From: Anaeromyxobacter paludicola
GTDB lineage: Bacteria; Myxococcota; Myxococcia; Myxococcales; Anaeromyxobacteraceae
DNA: 64,000 nucleotides
Assembly (NCBI RefSeq): GCF_023169965.1
Contig: NZ_AP025592.1
Location: 1,612,001 to 1,676,000, forward strand
Reading direction: 5' to 3'
Part shown: positions 25,498 to 32,176 of the stretch, one piece after another
Layout: every line of letters begins with the position of its first letter
How positions within the stretch are numbered: the first letter of the stretch is position 1
Made by a program: the position numbers and the translations under genes
The notes under the pieces: model-generated
Seen by the model: only the letters and a program-made list of their open reading frames with translations
The model's database searches: none
What the model was told of the DNA's origin: nothing

Positions 25498-25575
<78 letters not shown>

Positions 25576-25677: not shown

Positions 25678-26559
25678 ATGGCGAAGAAGAGCAACTCCAG
25701 GCCCGCAGAACCAGAGCGCCCACCGGAACTGACAGTCACCCGAGGGGAAGCCGCAGCCAAGCTCGGTGACCGCATCACGAAGGGGCGGGCCCTCTCCCAG
25801 AACTTCTCCCTACAGTCGGAGCCGGACGCTGAGGGCTGGCACGAGTACAACAAACTCCTACTGACCCAGCTCTTCACGAACGCGAGCGTTTCGGAAGAAT
25901 ACTTGTACGCCGGGCGTAGCCCCGTCCTCTTCCTCTCGCGAGGTGAAAGTCCGCGGGAGCGACAGAATCGACTTGGTCAGCTGGTAGCCGACAGAACCAA
26001 CTGGATTCTATCTCTGAGCGGCCGACTTGAGCTCTACAAAGAACCGCCCCGTTCCCCCTCTTCCAGCACAGGCAGCGCATCGACTGGGCGTGAAGTCAGG
26101 CAGATACCTCGAACGGCCTTCGTCGTCCACGGGCATGACCTTGGCGCCCGGGAGGCGACCGCTCGCCTTCTCGAGCAACTCGAGGTCAAGCCGATCGTCC
26201 TGCACGAGCAGGCCAACCAGGGGAGAACGATTCTAGAGAAGTTCGAGACGCACGCCGATGCAGGGTTCGCGGTTGTGCTGCTCACGCCGGATGATGTGGG
26301 GGCTCCTGAAGATGCGCCCGGGGACGAACTCCGACCGCGAGCTCGACAGAACGTGATCCTCGAACTCGGGTTCTTCTGGGGGAAGCTCGGCCGAGAGCGC
26401 GTGTGCGTCCTGTACAAGCCTGAAGTCGAGGTACCTTCCGACTTAGGTGGTCTCGTCTACGTTCCGTTCGATGATGGTGGGGCTTGGCGGTACAAGCTCG
26501 CCGAGGAAATCGACGCTGCCGGGATTGCCATCGATTTCAACCGTCTTCGAAGGTCCTGA
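25678..26559 (+). CDS. TIR-like domain nucleotide-binding protein (PF10137 type)
   Basis: 293 residues. The C-terminal half (about 145-290) matches the TIR-like domain found in bacterial defence effectors. FVVHGHDLGAREATARLL (His151 region), an ILEKFE helix and AVVLLTPDDVGAP are followed by RQNVILELGFFWGKLGR, whose Glu229 is the expected NADase catalytic residue. The N-terminal 140 residues are an unrecognised, charged domain ending in a Ser-rich linker. TIR domains of this type in CBASS and Pycsar effectors deplete NAD. Codon use and GC content are clearly lower than in the flanking chromosome. A GGAGAGCAGG ribosome site precedes the ATG. No cyclase lies nearby. Confidence 0.82.
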   Translation: MAKKSNSRPAEPERPPELTVTRGEAAAKLGDRITKGRALSQNFSLQSEPDAEGWHEYNKLLLTQLFTNASVSEEYLYAGRSPVLFLSRGESPRERQNRLGQLVADRTNWILSLSGRLELYKEPPRSPSSSTGSASTGREVRQIPRTAFVVHGHDLGAREATARLLEQLEVKPIVLHEQANQGRTILEKFETHADAGFAVVLLTPDDVGAPEDAPGDELRPRARQNVILELGFFWGKLGRERVCVLYKPEVEVPSDLGGLVYVPFDDGGAWRYKLAEEIDAAGIAIDFNRLRRS

Positions 26560-26922: not shown

Positions 26923-27312
26923 ATGGCTTACAGCATCGACATGCGTGGAGCAGCGCGTCGACACCTCGACGCCGCCGACAAGTTGGCGCTCGCCCAGCGA
27001 GAGGACGTGGCTGGATATCTATACGGCATCGCGGCTGAATGCGCAGTGAAGGCTATGGCGCAGACGTTGCCCTGTGCCCGCGACAAAGAGATCCTGATGG
27101 CGCATTTCCCGGACCTTCGGACACTCCTTCGCGAAGCGCTAACGGGAAGAACGGCAGTGCCACTCCTGCGGATTCTCGAGAACGACGCGTACCTGAACGA
27201 GTGGGAGATCCGCGTGCGGTACGCGCCGTCGAGAGAGGTTCGGAATAAGCCTCTGAATGGCTGGGCGGAGCAAGCACGCCGGACCGTTAACATGATGGGG
27301 GAGTTCGCATGA
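26923..27312 (+). CDS. Small HEPN-like helical protein, first gene of a three-gene operon
   Basis: 129 residues from the ATG at 26923, preceded by GCGAAAG. Longer in-frame starts would read through unconserved Arg-rich sequence. The core ARRHLDAADKLA...VAGYLYGIAAECAVKAMA resembles the first two helices of HEPN-domain proteins, and NEWEIRVRYAPSREV resembles the conserved last-helix region. The nuclease motif R-x4-6-H is not seen, so it is probably a non-catalytic HEPN relative acting as a partner or sensor. The stop overlaps the ATG of the ATPase gene (ATGA). The assignment is by pattern, not by search. Confidence 0.55.
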   Translation: MAYSIDMRGAARRHLDAADKLALAQREDVAGYLYGIAAECAVKAMAQTLPCARDKEILMAHFPDLRTLLREALTGRTAVPLLRILENDAYLNEWEIRVRYAPSREVRNKPLNGWAEQARRTVNMMGEFA

Positions 27313-28679
27313 GCGCGCCTCTGGTTCGCTTCGATGATGCGCTCCCGTTGCTCGCGCGAGAGATTGCTGCGACGCTCGGCGCAGAGCAACTCGCTGCTGG
27401 GATCGTGCTGCGGGACGCAACTGGACGCCTTGCGTTCTTCTCCCGAAACGACATCTCACCCGTTTCCGCCGAAAACCTTTCCGCACGCCTCCGGGCCGTG
27501 CTCGGGCCCTACGCGCGACCGGAGCGCGTCCTCGTTGATCCGCGCGCCACCGGAGCCGAGGCGATCCTAGCGGACTCCCGGACTACTCGTGTCATCGCCG
27601 GCGAGCACTCGATCCGGCTGATCGATCGCCGTATCGTAGGCGCCGATTGGGTGCGGTCACCCGCGCCCGCCGCAGAGGGACCACCCCGGTTCGTTTTCGC
27701 AAGTTTGAAGGGGGGCGTGGGGCGCTCGACCGCGCTTGCCGTGGCCGCCGCCGAGGTGGCCAGAGAGGGGCACAGTGTCCTTGTCATAGATCTCGACCTC
27801 GAGGCCCCTGGGCTTGGCTCCCTCTTACTTAGTGCCGAGACACTCCCCGAGTTCGGAACGCTCGACTACCTTGTCGAGAGAAAAGTGGGAGTGCCCGACG
27901 ATGGGTTCGTCGCGGATCTCGTCGGCCCCTCGAGGGTCCCAGCGGGGGGGCGGATCGACGTCGCGCCGGCCTTCGGCCGGAGATCGCTTGAGCATCCCGG
28001 CGACGTTCTGGCGAAGATCGGTCGAGCGTACCTGGAGACAATTGGGCCTGAAGGTGCGGTCGCTACCGTCTTCGACCAGATCCGCGAACTTGTGGATCGC
28101 CTAGTGGATAGGGCTCGCTACGACGCTATTCTAATAGACGCGCGCGCGGGGCTGCACGAGACCACTGCGGCCTCGGTATTGGGGCTGGGCGCCGAGGTCT
28201 TCCTCTTCGCGCTCGACGAGCCTCAAAGCTTCGACGGCTACTCCACCCTCCTCGCGAGTTTCGCTCAGCTCGCCCCGCCGGGCGCCCCGCTCCCTGAATG
28301 GGCAGACCGTTTGACCCCTGTCCAAGCTAAGGCTCCCGCAGACCCCGCTCGGCGCAAGGAGTTCAACCAGCGTTGGCAGGACCTCGTCATGCGGGTAGGT
28401 CCGTCGCGACCGGCCGCCGAACTCGGCGGAGAGATCCAAATTCCGGAGGGGTTCACTGAAGTGCCATGGGACGACGAATCCACGCCCGACGAGGAGGTCG
28501 TGCCTGTGGACCGGCCGCTTATGCAGCCGATCGCGGTCCTCAGCGATGCGCGATATGTTGCTTTTGACCCGTTGCGCCGGCGCGAACAGGTAGACGAGAA
28601 GCTCTACTCGGCAACGTTCGGCGACCTGCTCCGTCGCGTCGGTGCCGCAGTGGAATCCAGGGGCGAAGAGGCACCTTGA
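27309..28679 (+). CDS. KGGVGR-motif variant ParA/MinD-type ATPase
   Basis: 456 residues. About 130 N-terminal residues form an unrecognised alpha/beta domain. The deviant Walker A then reads FASLKGGVGRSTALA (134-144): the signature Lys134 is kept but the P-loop Lys is Arg139, the hallmark of the KGGVGR ATPase group. VLVIDLDLEAPGLGSLLLS and DAILIDARAGLHETTAA give the A' and B motifs of SIMIBI ATPases. Group members are usually found in accessory regions with a second ATPase. It overlaps both neighbours by four bases (ATGA and TTGA), so the three proteins are made together. Low-GC codon use as in the rest of the island. Confidence 0.82.
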   Translation: MSAPLVRFDDALPLLAREIAATLGAEQLAAGIVLRDATGRLAFFSRNDISPVSAENLSARLRAVLGPYARPERVLVDPRATGAEAILADSRTTRVIAGEHSIRLIDRRIVGADWVRSPAPAAEGPPRFVFASLKGGVGRSTALAVAAAEVAREGHSVLVIDLDLEAPGLGSLLLSAETLPEFGTLDYLVERKVGVPDDGFVADLVGPSRVPAGGRIDVAPAFGRRSLEHPGDVLAKIGRAYLETIGPEGAVATVFDQIRELVDRLVDRARYDAILIDARAGLHETTAASVLGLGAEVFLFALDEPQSFDGYSTLLASFAQLAPPGAPLPEWADRLTPVQAKAPADPARRKEFNQRWQDLVMRVGPSRPAAELGGEIQIPEGFTEVPWDDESTPDEEVVPVDRPLMQPIAVLSDARYVAFDPLRRREQVDEKLYSATFGDLLRRVGAAVESRGEEAP

Positions 28680-30121
28680 GCGTAGACTTCGACATGGGCG
28701 CCATTCGCGAAGCCATCGCGCACCTGCCGGCGGACGTCTCTTCCGACGCGCACGGTGTTCAGGCTCCTACGTTGGAGGAACTCTTTGCGCCACCGAGTCA
28801 CTCCGCGGCGCTCGACCCGGCAGCATCGGTCGTGCAGGGAGCGCGCGGCGCGGGAAAGAGCTTCTGGGCTGGCGTGCTCGCTAAGCGGCCTTTGCGAACC
28901 GCAGCCGCAACTGCCTACCCGCGCCTGGGCCTCGATCGCACCGAGGTCGAGTTCGGATTCACCGGGCTCCCGGGTCCGGAGGGGCTCGACCGCGAAAAGC
29001 TGGACTCCATCCTTCCGGAGCGCACGGACGCAAGTTCAGCCCGCATTTTCTGGTGGGCGACCGTCCTTCGTGCCCTGGAGCGCGCCTGCGGGCGTGAGAA
29101 ATCGCTGAGGGAGTTGTTGCCGATTGCCGAGGACGTGGAGGCGCGTGAACGCCTCATCGAACATAGTTCTCGGGAGCTCAAGAACCAAGTACTGCTTGTC
29201 GTCTACGACGCGCTCGATACAGTGGCATCCTCGTGGCCGCGCCGCCGCATGCTGACGCAAGCGCTACTTGAAGTGGTCTGGGCCATGCGGGCGTGGAAGA
29301 CTATTCGTCCCAAGGTATTCGTCCGCCCCGACCAGCTTGAGGACGACGCTCTTCTGTTCGTGGAGCTTCCGAAGATTCGCACAGGCGCCGTCCGGCTCAC
29401 TTGGAGCGGAGCCGATCTATACGGCCTTCTATTCTCCCGCCTCGCACTTGGCGAGGCGCGCAAGTCTTTCTTCGCATTGCTGCGTGCACTCGGGCTGCCG
29501 ACTGCGACGCGAGAGGAGATTCTTGCGCGCCGATGGCAACTTGCGACAAGCGAGGATAGCCAGCGCGAACTGATGAAGGCCTTGGCTGGCCGATACATGG
29601 CGTCGGGTCCGCACGGCTACAAGAAGGGCGACACCTACGATTGGCCACTGAAGCACCTCGCAGACGCCCTCAACGAGGTGACCCCCCGCAGCTTCCTTGG
29701 GCTCGCAATCGGGGCGTCCACGTTCGGGGACCCACCCCCCAATCGCGTGTTCACCCCCGATGGGATTCGGCATGGCTTGCGGCGGGCATCGAAGACACGG
29801 GTCGATCAACTCCATCAGGAATTTCCGTGGATCAAAGGCGTCCTTGCCCCTCTCGCAGGACTCCTGTTGCCACAGGAGGAGGCTGTCGTCTTTAAAGCGT
29901 GGAAGCGGGCTGGCACGGTCCAACGTGCGATTAAGGATGCAGCAGCGAAGGGATATTTGCCGCCGTTCGCGCGAGGAGACGACGAGGACGAGCCGGCGTT
30001 ATTTGCGGCCATGCAGCGAATTGGCGTCATGTCCCGCCGTGACGACGGTCGGCTGGATATGCCGGACTTGTTCCGGGTCGCAGCGAAGCTGCTGAAGAAG
30101 GGCGGCACCGCTCCCATCTGA
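28676..30121 (+). CDS. P-loop ATPase partner of the KGGVGR protein
   Basis: 481 residues with a TTG start that overlaps the preceding stop (TTGA). Walker A is QGARGAGKSFWAGVLA with Lys61; Walker B is LLVVYDALDTVA with Asp178. The second half is helical and ends with a winged-helix-like segment (ALFAAMQRIGVMSRRDDGRLDMPDLFRVAAKLL). I do not recognise a named family; the layout resembles STAND/AAA-type defence ATPases. No nuclease or membrane domain is visible. Function probably depends on the KGGVGR ATPase and the HEPN-like protein. Confidence 0.72.
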   Translation: MSVDFDMGAIREAIAHLPADVSSDAHGVQAPTLEELFAPPSHSAALDPAASVVQGARGAGKSFWAGVLAKRPLRTAAATAYPRLGLDRTEVEFGFTGLPGPEGLDREKLDSILPERTDASSARIFWWATVLRALERACGREKSLRELLPIAEDVEARERLIEHSSRELKNQVLLVVYDALDTVASSWPRRRMLTQALLEVVWAMRAWKTIRPKVFVRPDQLEDDALLFVELPKIRTGAVRLTWSGADLYGLLFSRLALGEARKSFFALLRALGLPTATREEILARRWQLATSEDSQRELMKALAGRYMASGPHGYKKGDTYDWPLKHLADALNEVTPRSFLGLAIGASTFGDPPPNRVFTPDGIRHGLRRASKTRVDQLHQEFPWIKGVLAPLAGLLLPQEEAVVFKAWKRAGTVQRAIKDAAAKGYLPPFARGDDEDEPALFAAMQRIGVMSRRDDGRLDMPDLFRVAAKLLKKGGTAPI

Positions 30122-30491: not shown

Positions 30492-30519
30492 GGCGCAATA
30501 TGGTCGCTGGTTCACATCC
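30492..30519 (+). repeat. Candidate attachment site (right), degenerate tRNA-Pro 3' fragment
   Basis: GGCGCAATA followed by TGGTCGCTGGTTCACATCC resembles tRNA-Pro from the 3' side of the anticodon stem through the T arm. Eighteen of 19 bases match in the T-arm core. It marks the boundary at which GC content and codon use return to chromosomal values. Confidence 0.6.
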
Positions 30520-30739: not shown

Positions 30740-32176
30740 ATGTTCGGACGATGCGGGAAGCTGGTGCTCTCGTCGCTGCTCGCCGCGGCGCCGCTCCTGG
30801 GGGACGCGCAGTTCACCACGCTCGGGAGCCAGGACGGCATCTCGGTGGAGGCGCACGCCCTCAACGACCTGGGCCAGGTCGCCGGGACGGGGAGGCGCGC
30901 CGTCCTGTGGCGGGCCGGGACCCTGCTGGACCTCGGCACGCTCGGCGGGAGCTGGAGCTCGGCCAGCGCGCTCAACGACTCGGGGCAGGTGGTCGGCGTG
31001 AGCGAGACCGCCACCGGCGCGTCGCACGCCTTCCTCTGGGAGTCGGGCGCGATGCAGGACCTCGGGACGCCAGGCGGCGCGTCCAGCTCGGCGGTCGCGG
31101 TCAACGACGCGCGCCAGGTCGCGGGCAACGGCACCACCGCCGGCGGCGCGTCGCACGCCTTCCTCTGGAGCGCCGGCACCCTCACCGACCTCGGCACGCT
31201 GGGCGGCGCCTCGAGCGCGGCGACGGCCCTCGGCGCGGCCGGGCAGGTGGTCGGCGAGAGCGCCACCGCGACCGGCGACACGCACGCCTTCCTCTGGCAG
31301 GCGGGGACCATGCTCGACCTCGGCACCCTCGGCGGTGCCACCAGCCGCGCCACCGCGGTCAACGCGGCCGGCCAGGTGGTCGGCGACAGCACCACCGCCA
31401 CCGGCGACACGCACGCCTTCCTCTGGCAAGCGGGCACGATGCTCGACCTCGGCACCCTCGGCGGCACCACCAGCCGCGCCACCGCCGTCAACGCGGCCGG
31501 CCAGGTGGTCGGCGAGAGCGCCATCGGGCCGCCCGAGGTCGCCCGCGAGGGCGCCGTCTCGGGCGAGACGCACGCGTTCCTCTGGCAGGCCGGCACCATG
31601 CAGGACCTGAACGCGTTCCCGCTCCTGGCCTTCCCGTACCTCGCCCCGTACTCGGGCGCGACCGCGGTGAACGCCCTCGGCGAGGCCACCGGGCTGAGCC
31701 GCTTCGCCCCGCACACCTACCACTCGATCCGCTGGGGCCTCGCCGGCCCGATGCAGGACGTCGGCACCTGCTCCGGCACGCCCCAGGGCAGCAGCCAGGG
31801 CGTCGCCATCAACGACTTCGGCCAGATCACCGGCTCCTGCCCGCCGATGCTGGGCTCCTTCTTCGCCGACGTCTCCAGCGCCGCGAAGGCGCAGCGGCTC
31901 ACGATCTTCTTCGAGCGGATGGTCGCGATGGGCGCCCTCACCGGCCTCGGCCCTGATAGCGTCGCCGGAGCCCGCATCGCCGCGCTGGGAGGGATGATCG
32001 GGTCCGTCGAGGGCCTCGTGGCGCAGGGCCAGCTCCTCGACGCCTGCCAGCCGCTGCACGACGCCGCGCTGCGGATGGACGGCCGGCCCCGGCCGCCGGA
32101 CTTCGCGACCGGCCCGGCGCTCCCCCGGCTCCGGGCGCTGATCGGCAACCTCCAGGGCGCGCTCGGCTGCGATTGA
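30740..32176 (+). CDS. Exported HAF-repeat protein
   Basis: 478 residues. A signal sequence (KLVLSSLLAAAPLLGDA) precedes tandem copies of a 43-residue unit of the type SHAFLW-x4-G-x2-DLGTLGG-x9-A-x3-GQVVG-x-S. HAF-repeat proteins form extracellular beta-propeller-like folds of unknown function. Units are copied very evenly at DNA level (129-bp period from 31023). The last 130 residues lack repeats and end in a helical part. The gene begins about 220 bp after the island's right end. Confidence 0.82.
   Translation: MFGRCGKLVLSSLLAAAPLLGDAQFTTLGSQDGISVEAHALNDLGQVAGTGRRAVLWRAGTLLDLGTLGGSWSSASALNDSGQVVGVSETATGASHAFLWESGAMQDLGTPGGASSSAVAVNDARQVAGNGTTAGGASHAFLWSAGTLTDLGTLGGASSAATALGAAGQVVGESATATGDTHAFLWQAGTMLDLGTLGGATSRATAVNAAGQVVGDSTTATGDTHAFLWQAGTMLDLGTLGGTTSRATAVNAAGQVVGESAIGPPEVAREGAVSGETHAFLWQAGTMQDLNAFPLLAFPYLAPYSGATAVNALGEATGLSRFAPHTYHSIRWGLAGPMQDVGTCSGTPQGSSQGVAINDFGQITGSCPPMLGSFFADVSSAAKAQRLTIFFERMVAMGALTGLGPDSVAGARIAALGGMIGSVEGLVAQGQLLDACQPLHDAALRMDGRPRPPDFATGPALPRLRALIGNLQGALGCD
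31023..31600 (+). repeat. Tandem 129-bp coding repeat
   Basis: The CGCACGCC anchor recurs at 31023, 31152, 31281 and 31410, exactly 129 bp apart, and again at 31569 after a 30-bp insertion. The units starting at 31281 and 31410 are almost identical, pointing to recent duplication or gene conversion. Confidence 0.85.

Follow-up and report, generated by a model that had tools for sequence, protein, structure and literature searches.

A HEPN, KGGVGR ATPase and AAA+ ATPase gene triad of Anaeromyxobacter paludicola is a member of the candidate phage-defence system PDC-M28

PADLOC-DB 2.0.0 lists a three-gene candidate phage-defence system under the name PDC-M28, which exists as a catalogue entry only. 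PDC entries were called uncharacterised in a 2025 paper (PMC12482510), no open-access paper mentions either 'PDC-M28' or 'KGGVGR' (none was found for Sll1717 either), and no phage-protection experiment on PDC-M28 was found in the open literature. Here we analyse a triad of genes, denoted A, B and C, at positions 26923-30121 of a window of 64,000 nucleotides, i.e. the stretch from 1,612,001 to 1,676,000 of the Anaeromyxobacter paludicola contig NZ_AP025592.1. The three genes match the models PDC-M28A, PDC-M28B and PDC-M28C near full length and in order (1.5e-21, 7.6e-95 and 5.2e-113, respectively), and the triad is a member of PDC-M28, with the same genes in the same order and no difference in composition. 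A preliminary description of the locus, made from the letters of the sequence, had called this system undescribed, a claim that has to be given up since all three genes match the catalogued models and B also matches the NCBIfam family NF047398 (AAA_KGGVGR), its ATPase domain scoring 178.1 bits against a cut-off of 90 (2.3e-52). NF047398 is a domain-level family that covers the ATPase domain of B and also spans TIR- and SAVED-fused proteins. Membership of C in ATPase_Sll1717 (NF047389) was rejected at 47.1 bits against a cut-off of 75, and C is a distant relative of that family only.

It is instructive to set the triad beside the HEPN(MAE_18760)-ParA/Soj dyad (PMC3710099). At first glance the two are alike, as a small HEPN gene shares an operon with a gene for a ParA/Soj-type ATPase. 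Firstly, however, the dyad is described as a pair of genes, while a third, AAA+ gene is constant in the triad. Secondly, the HEPN family of the dyad is tabled with a conserved motif, whereas the HEPN protein of the triad is without R-x4-6-H. Thirdly, the ATPase of the triad is the KGGVGR variant. The genes of the window copy and their main motifs are as follows.

26923-27312, + strand: gene A, 129 amino acids, HEPN-fold protein, PDC-M28A; predicted effector
27309-28679, + strand: gene B, 456 amino acids, SIMIBI-type KGGVGR-variant ATPase with an N-terminal domain of about 125 amino acids, PDC-M28B; predicted nucleotide switch
28676-30121, + strand: gene C, 481 amino acids, TTG start, AAA+ ATPase of the STAND/ORC-Cdc6 clade, PDC-M28C; predicted sensor/transducer
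27708-27725, + strand: codons of K134-G-G-V-G-R139 in B, read from the sequence; K134, G135, G136, G138 and R139 invariant
28838-28861, + strand: Walker A of C (G55-A-R-G-A-G-K61-S62), read from the sequence; G55, R57, G58, G60 and K61 invariant in 76 homologues
29207-29209, + strand: Walker B Asp178 of C, read from the sequence; invariant in the same 76 homologues

Both junctions of the window copy are four-nucleotide overlaps (ATGA between A and B, TTGA between B and C), these and the gene coordinates being as the preliminary description had given them, and the start of gene A at 26923 agrees with the starts of its homologues.

Conservation and genomic setting of the triad

Each species was represented by a single genome in the scan for relatives of C (204 found, 80 loci kept), and further relatives came from IMG/VR viral contigs (7) and from plasmids (21 records). 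The hosts span about ten phyla, i.e. Pseudomonadota, Myxococcota, Acidobacteriota, Spirochaetota, Chloroflexota, Nitrospirota, Actinomycetota, Cyanobacteriota, Synergistota, Desulfobacterota and others. Among the loci with at least 1.9 kb of sequence upstream of C, 86 out of 89 have the genes in the order A-B-C. The pairwise divergences of the proteins, compared over 75 loci, are correlated with r = 0.907 for A and B, 0.947 for B and C and 0.890 for A and C (Mantel p <= 5e-4). A start no more than 20 nucleotides from the preceding stop can be read at 75 of 75 A/B junctions and at 74 of 74 measurable B/C junctions, and the exact four-nucleotide overlap recurs at 43 and 42 of these, respectively, the counts being a best case as the start nearest to the stop was chosen each time. 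Full-length B is fused to full-length C in two genomes (L069 and L096), and shorter single-chain KGGVGR-C proteins occur in L139 and L141, the latter with a HEPN gene directly upstream. With the order kept in nearly all loci, correlated divergences and two genomes in which B and C are joined, the comparison shows A-B-C to be a genuine unit that is inherited as one operon. By the same kind of comparison, B and C are shown to associate through fusion, and they can be a single polypeptide.

The Myxococcota were surveyed separately, and 20 KGGVGR copies above the cut-off were found in 17 of 195 genomes. We fetched 17 of these regions (the window's own included), and A-B-C is present in 11 of them. 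The other six contain two single-chain KGGVGR-C proteins, one TIR fusion (L137), two SAVED fusions (L142 and L143) and one fusion to an unassigned region (L136).

Annotated phage genomes gave no match to the triad, nor did the DNA of two enterobacterial triads match anything in the E. coli genomes searched. The IMG/VR contigs L098-L102, which are labelled viral, carry the whole triad. A further observation concerns L031 (6549-7667) and L058 (9348-9899), where open reading frames begin like A and finish like B, as though an in-frame deletion had taken out the junction; these are possibly degraded copies or assembly errors.

The surroundings of the triad are those of known defence systems in a number of loci. 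Four copies lie within BREX-2 operons and in more than one position, namely between pglX and the brxC-like gene in Thiodictyon, Sphaerotilus and Accumulibacter, and between pglW and pglX in Streptomyces. Three DISARM loci (L069, L096 and L052) and three DUF499-DUF3780-DUF1156-methyltransferase-PLD-helicase operons (L055, L075 and L092) also contain the triad, and there are copies on plasmids and beside integrases. The core BREX genes are absent at the window locus. Comparison thus shows the module to be carried repeatedly in BREX-2, DISARM and DUF499/methyltransferase operons and on islands that appear to be tRNA-inserted or plasmid-borne, and the three-gene system co-conserved in defence settings that the preliminary description had proposed is borne out by this survey, as is its view of B and C as two different ATPases. 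The same description had asked how often the genes adjoin known defence genes. Near neighbours at 63 loci matched 104 PADLOC models at 1e-20 or better versus 58 for a similar number of far neighbours, but this contrast is no clean control, as the far genes also lie in islands and the models are redundant. The models matched by the near neighbours include PglX, PglZ, GajB, type IIG and type I restriction-modification, DRT and PLD helicase. The contrast is suggestive of a defence setting without separating near from far cleanly. Taking these sequence comparisons together, we consider antiviral defence the likely function of the triad.

The three proteins

The AlphaFold2 model of A has a pLDDT (predicted local distance difference test) of 94.8 and a pTM (predicted template modelling score) of 0.89. 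The best eight Foldseek matches of this model in the PDB are all HEPN or HEPN-related, with probabilities up to 1.00 and E-values from 0.06 to 0.74 (none below 0.06), and a PDB sequence search with the A profile gave chance matches only. Among 76 homologues of A, the HEPN family PF05168 is matched by 14 and the AbiV family PF18728 by 3 at E<=0.01. Nine residues are invariant in 67 out of 67 homologues: R13, G35, E39, C40, K43, H61, W94, R99 and Y100. Of these, E39 and K43 make up, in all 67 proteins, the Ex3[KR] motif, described as the second HEPN motif by Anantharaman et al. (PMC3710099). In AbiV and AF0298 the His of the canonical motif is absent and another His, N-terminal to the motif, is kept, which could form an alternative active site (PMC3710099). 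The pattern E39-x3-K43, H61 and R99 of A fits this description and resembles the other HEPN site put forward for AbiV. Instead of R-x4-6-H, the two share an Ex3K in the second helix and a conserved Arg in the first, and each has a conserved His past helix 2 that may correspond to that of the other; the sequence similarity between them is marginal. We rejected A as a member of AbiV, as the window protein has no PF18728 match and few of its homologues have one; judged by its conserved residues, A is AbiV-like in pattern and not an AbiV member. The statement of the preliminary description that none of the three proteins has an obvious toxic domain is weakened for A by the likeness of R13, E39, K43, H61 and R99 to this site. 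Domain searches found no nuclease domain in B or C.

The most conspicuous feature of B is its modified P-loop. The motif KGG[VMA]GR is present in 89 out of 89 homologues (KGGVGR in 86 of them), and the P-loop Lys is replaced by Arg (Arg139) in all 89 with the signature Lys134 kept, a replacement already recognised in the preliminary description. Residues W114, K134, G135, G136, G138, R139, D161, D163, P167, G168, G183, D186, G223, K236, R279 and G281 are invariant in the 89 sequences, and the relatives of B in the PDB are ArsA, MinD and ParA. Since a Lys-to-Arg change at the P-loop position of P-loop NTPases usually lowers hydrolysis, it is a natural guess that B may be a tight-binding ATP switch. 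The invariant K236 and the nearly invariant R239 (99%) could compensate for the lost P-loop Lys.

Another example of variation is the fusion of the KGGVGR ATPase to other domains in Myxococcota. In L137 (5715-8015, - strand) it is fused to TIR (TIR_2 1.7e-12, ThsB model 6.6e-38) and a second, overlapping TIR gene lies just upstream, while in L142 (8243-10309, + strand) and L143 (6840-8621, - strand) it is fused to SAVED (about 1e-18). No CD-NTase was matched among the scanned neighbours of the two KGGVGR-SAVED proteins; L142 has one RT-protease-like (reverse transcriptase-protease-like) neighbour. TIR and SAVED are domains familiar from antiviral effectors and sensors, and the fusions place the KGGVGR domain in this company and hint at a regulatory ATPase that is common to bacterial immunity. 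A description of such a shared ATPase was not found in the open literature searched. We speculate, as a tentative generalisation somewhat less likely than not, that the KGGVGR ATPases serve bacterial immunity as a general switch, i.e. a SIMIBI class that lost the P-loop Lys and whose operon or fusion partners are exchangeable sensors and effectors (in PDC-M28 HEPN plus AAA+, elsewhere TIR or SAVED); PDC-M28 would then be a system of three parts whose switch licenses an AbiV-type HEPN effector with a non-canonical active site.

The model of C has a pLDDT of 92.3 and a pTM of 0.91, and its nearest Foldseek matches are 2qen, archaeal ORC2, BrxC and Cdc6 (E-values from 7.9e-5 to 4.9e-4, probability 1.00). 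Profile searches of all three proteins and structure models had been proposed in the preliminary description; the former gave the PADLOC-DB matches, and the latter gave folds of HEPN type for A and of ORC/Cdc6/BrxC type for C. A PDB sequence search with the C profile gave chance matches only, and among 76 homologues AAA_16 is matched by 25, NACHT by 5 and ORC-CDC6-like by 2. Lys61 of Walker A and Asp178 of Walker B had been read correctly from the sequence beforehand, and both are invariant. Thus, C belongs to the AAA+ ATPases of STAND/ORC-Cdc6 type, and its Walker A and B are intact. BrxC and DUF499 ATPases have been described as the same class (PMC12839542). C shares this fold class with BrxC and differs from it in that C has about 480 amino acids, belongs to an operon module of its own and accompanies BREX-2 components rather than replacing them.

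A possible mechanism and its alternatives

We propose that the triad is a mobile antiviral module in which C senses, B switches and A, as the HEPN effector, targets RNA or translation, the roles being inferred from domain class, and we put the probability of this reading at roughly one half. C, with its intact active site, would sense an infection signal or invader DNA and work in a complex with B, which would be a SIMIBI switch that dimerises. B, with Lys134 kept and Arg139 in the place of the P-loop Lys, would probably bind ATP tightly, with slow hydrolysis or none before a trigger arrives. The complex of the two ATPases would hold A back and then release or activate it, and A, using its AbiV-like alternative active site (R13, E39, K43, H61 and R99), may cleave or sequester RNA; translation would be halted and phage growth aborted. 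PDC-M28 would thereby gain testable parts, i.e. a candidate HEPN effector with an alternative site, an Arg-for-Lys switch ATPase and a BrxC/Cdc6-like partner that in some genomes forms one chain with the switch. Its occurrence in DNA-targeting defence operons of three kinds suggests that the module is a back-up, brought into play once the first line fails.

Several points weigh against this proposal. Firstly, A is without the canonical R-x4-6-H, as the preliminary description had noted for the window protein, and no His lies 5-7 residues past R99 in 64 out of 67 homologues; HEPN domains without the conserved polar residues are regarded as nucleic-acid binders (Anantharaman et al., PMC3710099). 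Secondly, the profile match between A and AbiV is weak (61% probability) and local, covering helices 1-2 only. A forced global profile alignment, itself of low probability, places H61 of A on the AbiV His, and the AbiV proteins examined do not conserve a counterpart of R99. Thirdly, C-type genes without a recognisable A and B occur in Streptomyces plasmids and in one Treponema contig (L155, L156, L157 and L073). Finally, which protein is the sensor and which the effector was assigned by domain class.

The alternative that survives best is a defence acting on the DNA of the invader, in which C would bind DNA like ORC/Cdc6 or BrxC, with B as its partner of ParA type, and A would be a HEPN adaptor or nucleic-acid binder without catalytic activity. 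It agrees with the missing R-x4-6-H of A, with the nearest solved folds of C (ORC, Cdc6 and BrxC bind DNA or serve DNA-targeting systems) and with the host operons of the module, which themselves act on DNA. We nevertheless consider it unlikely, though worth keeping in mind, as nine invariant residues in A, H61, R13, E39, K43 and R99 among them, exceed the needs of a pure scaffold, and nuclease domains were not found in B and C.

Somewhat less probable still is a toxin-antitoxin or addiction module that retains mobile elements, with A as a HEPN toxin held by the ATPases B (and C). A toxin-antitoxin pair of HEPN and ParA/Soj has been proposed (Anantharaman 2013, PMC3710099), and triads are found on plasmids, beside integrases and, in the window, on a tRNA-bounded insert. 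The repeated mid-operon placement in BREX-2, DISARM and DUF499 operons is, however, typical of defence cargo, and the second, AAA+ ATPase is nearly always there. The two roles are compatible, so that addiction and defence do not exclude each other.

The preliminary description had also named the nearby TIR protein (25678-26559) as a possible effector of the triad. The gene lies 363 nucleotides upstream of A in the same insert and on the same strand, and one Enterobacter triad has a different TIR gene alongside. We regard this role as very improbable and rejected the gene as a component of the triad, since none of about 100 other triad loci has a relative of it, and the protein matches a single-gene candidate of its own, PDC-S35. 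From this pattern the TIR gene is best read as a separate candidate defence gene, a passenger on the triad's insert.

A plasmid or chromosome partition operon, with B as ParA and C or A as its partner, would suit the place of B within the ParA/MinD/ArsA superfamily but was rejected as the least credible reading, for 89 out of 89 B proteins have Arg where ParA has its P-loop Lys, copies sit on chromosomes and inside defence operons, the triads read have no ParB next to them, and neither A nor C resembles ParB. The preliminary description had named outcomes that would speak against its own proposal, among them a partition operon, genes that do not stay together elsewhere and a match to an already named system; the first two run counter to what was found, and the third did occur, with PDC-M28 as a named candidate.

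A probable tRNA-site insert

The features that surround the triad in the window are the following.

25499-25575, + strand: tRNA-Pro (GGG), found with ARAGORN; left boundary of the putative insert
25543-25561, + strand: attL-like copy of a 19-nucleotide direct repeat, inside the T-arm of tRNA-Pro, found by repeat search
25678-26559, + strand: TIR-domain gene (CAP12/PCTIR-type), PF10137 at 2.8e-36 and PADLOC PDC-S35 at 2.2e-71
30501-30519, + strand: attR-like copy of the 19-nucleotide repeat, 18/19 identical to the left copy and 4958 bp from it

The low-GC island at a tRNA beside a TIR gene, pointed out in the preliminary description, is found as described: the local GC content drops to 0.64-0.66 compared to about 0.74 around it, and the low-GC stretch starts at tRNA-Pro. 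The ungapped score of the repeat pair is 17, versus a maximum of 13 among 60 shuffles, and the two copies enclose both the TIR gene and A-B-C (an insert of ~5 kb). Because repeats derived from the tRNA flank the TIR gene and the triad, this stretch has the look of a small insert at a tRNA site. It contains no evident integrase, and no empty integration site was demonstrated in relatives, the flanking genes being without clear orthologues in the family. Immediately to the right of the insert, the gene at 30740-32176 encodes a repeat protein and contains 129-bp direct repeats (30879-31608), five of them in regular register, and a sixth.

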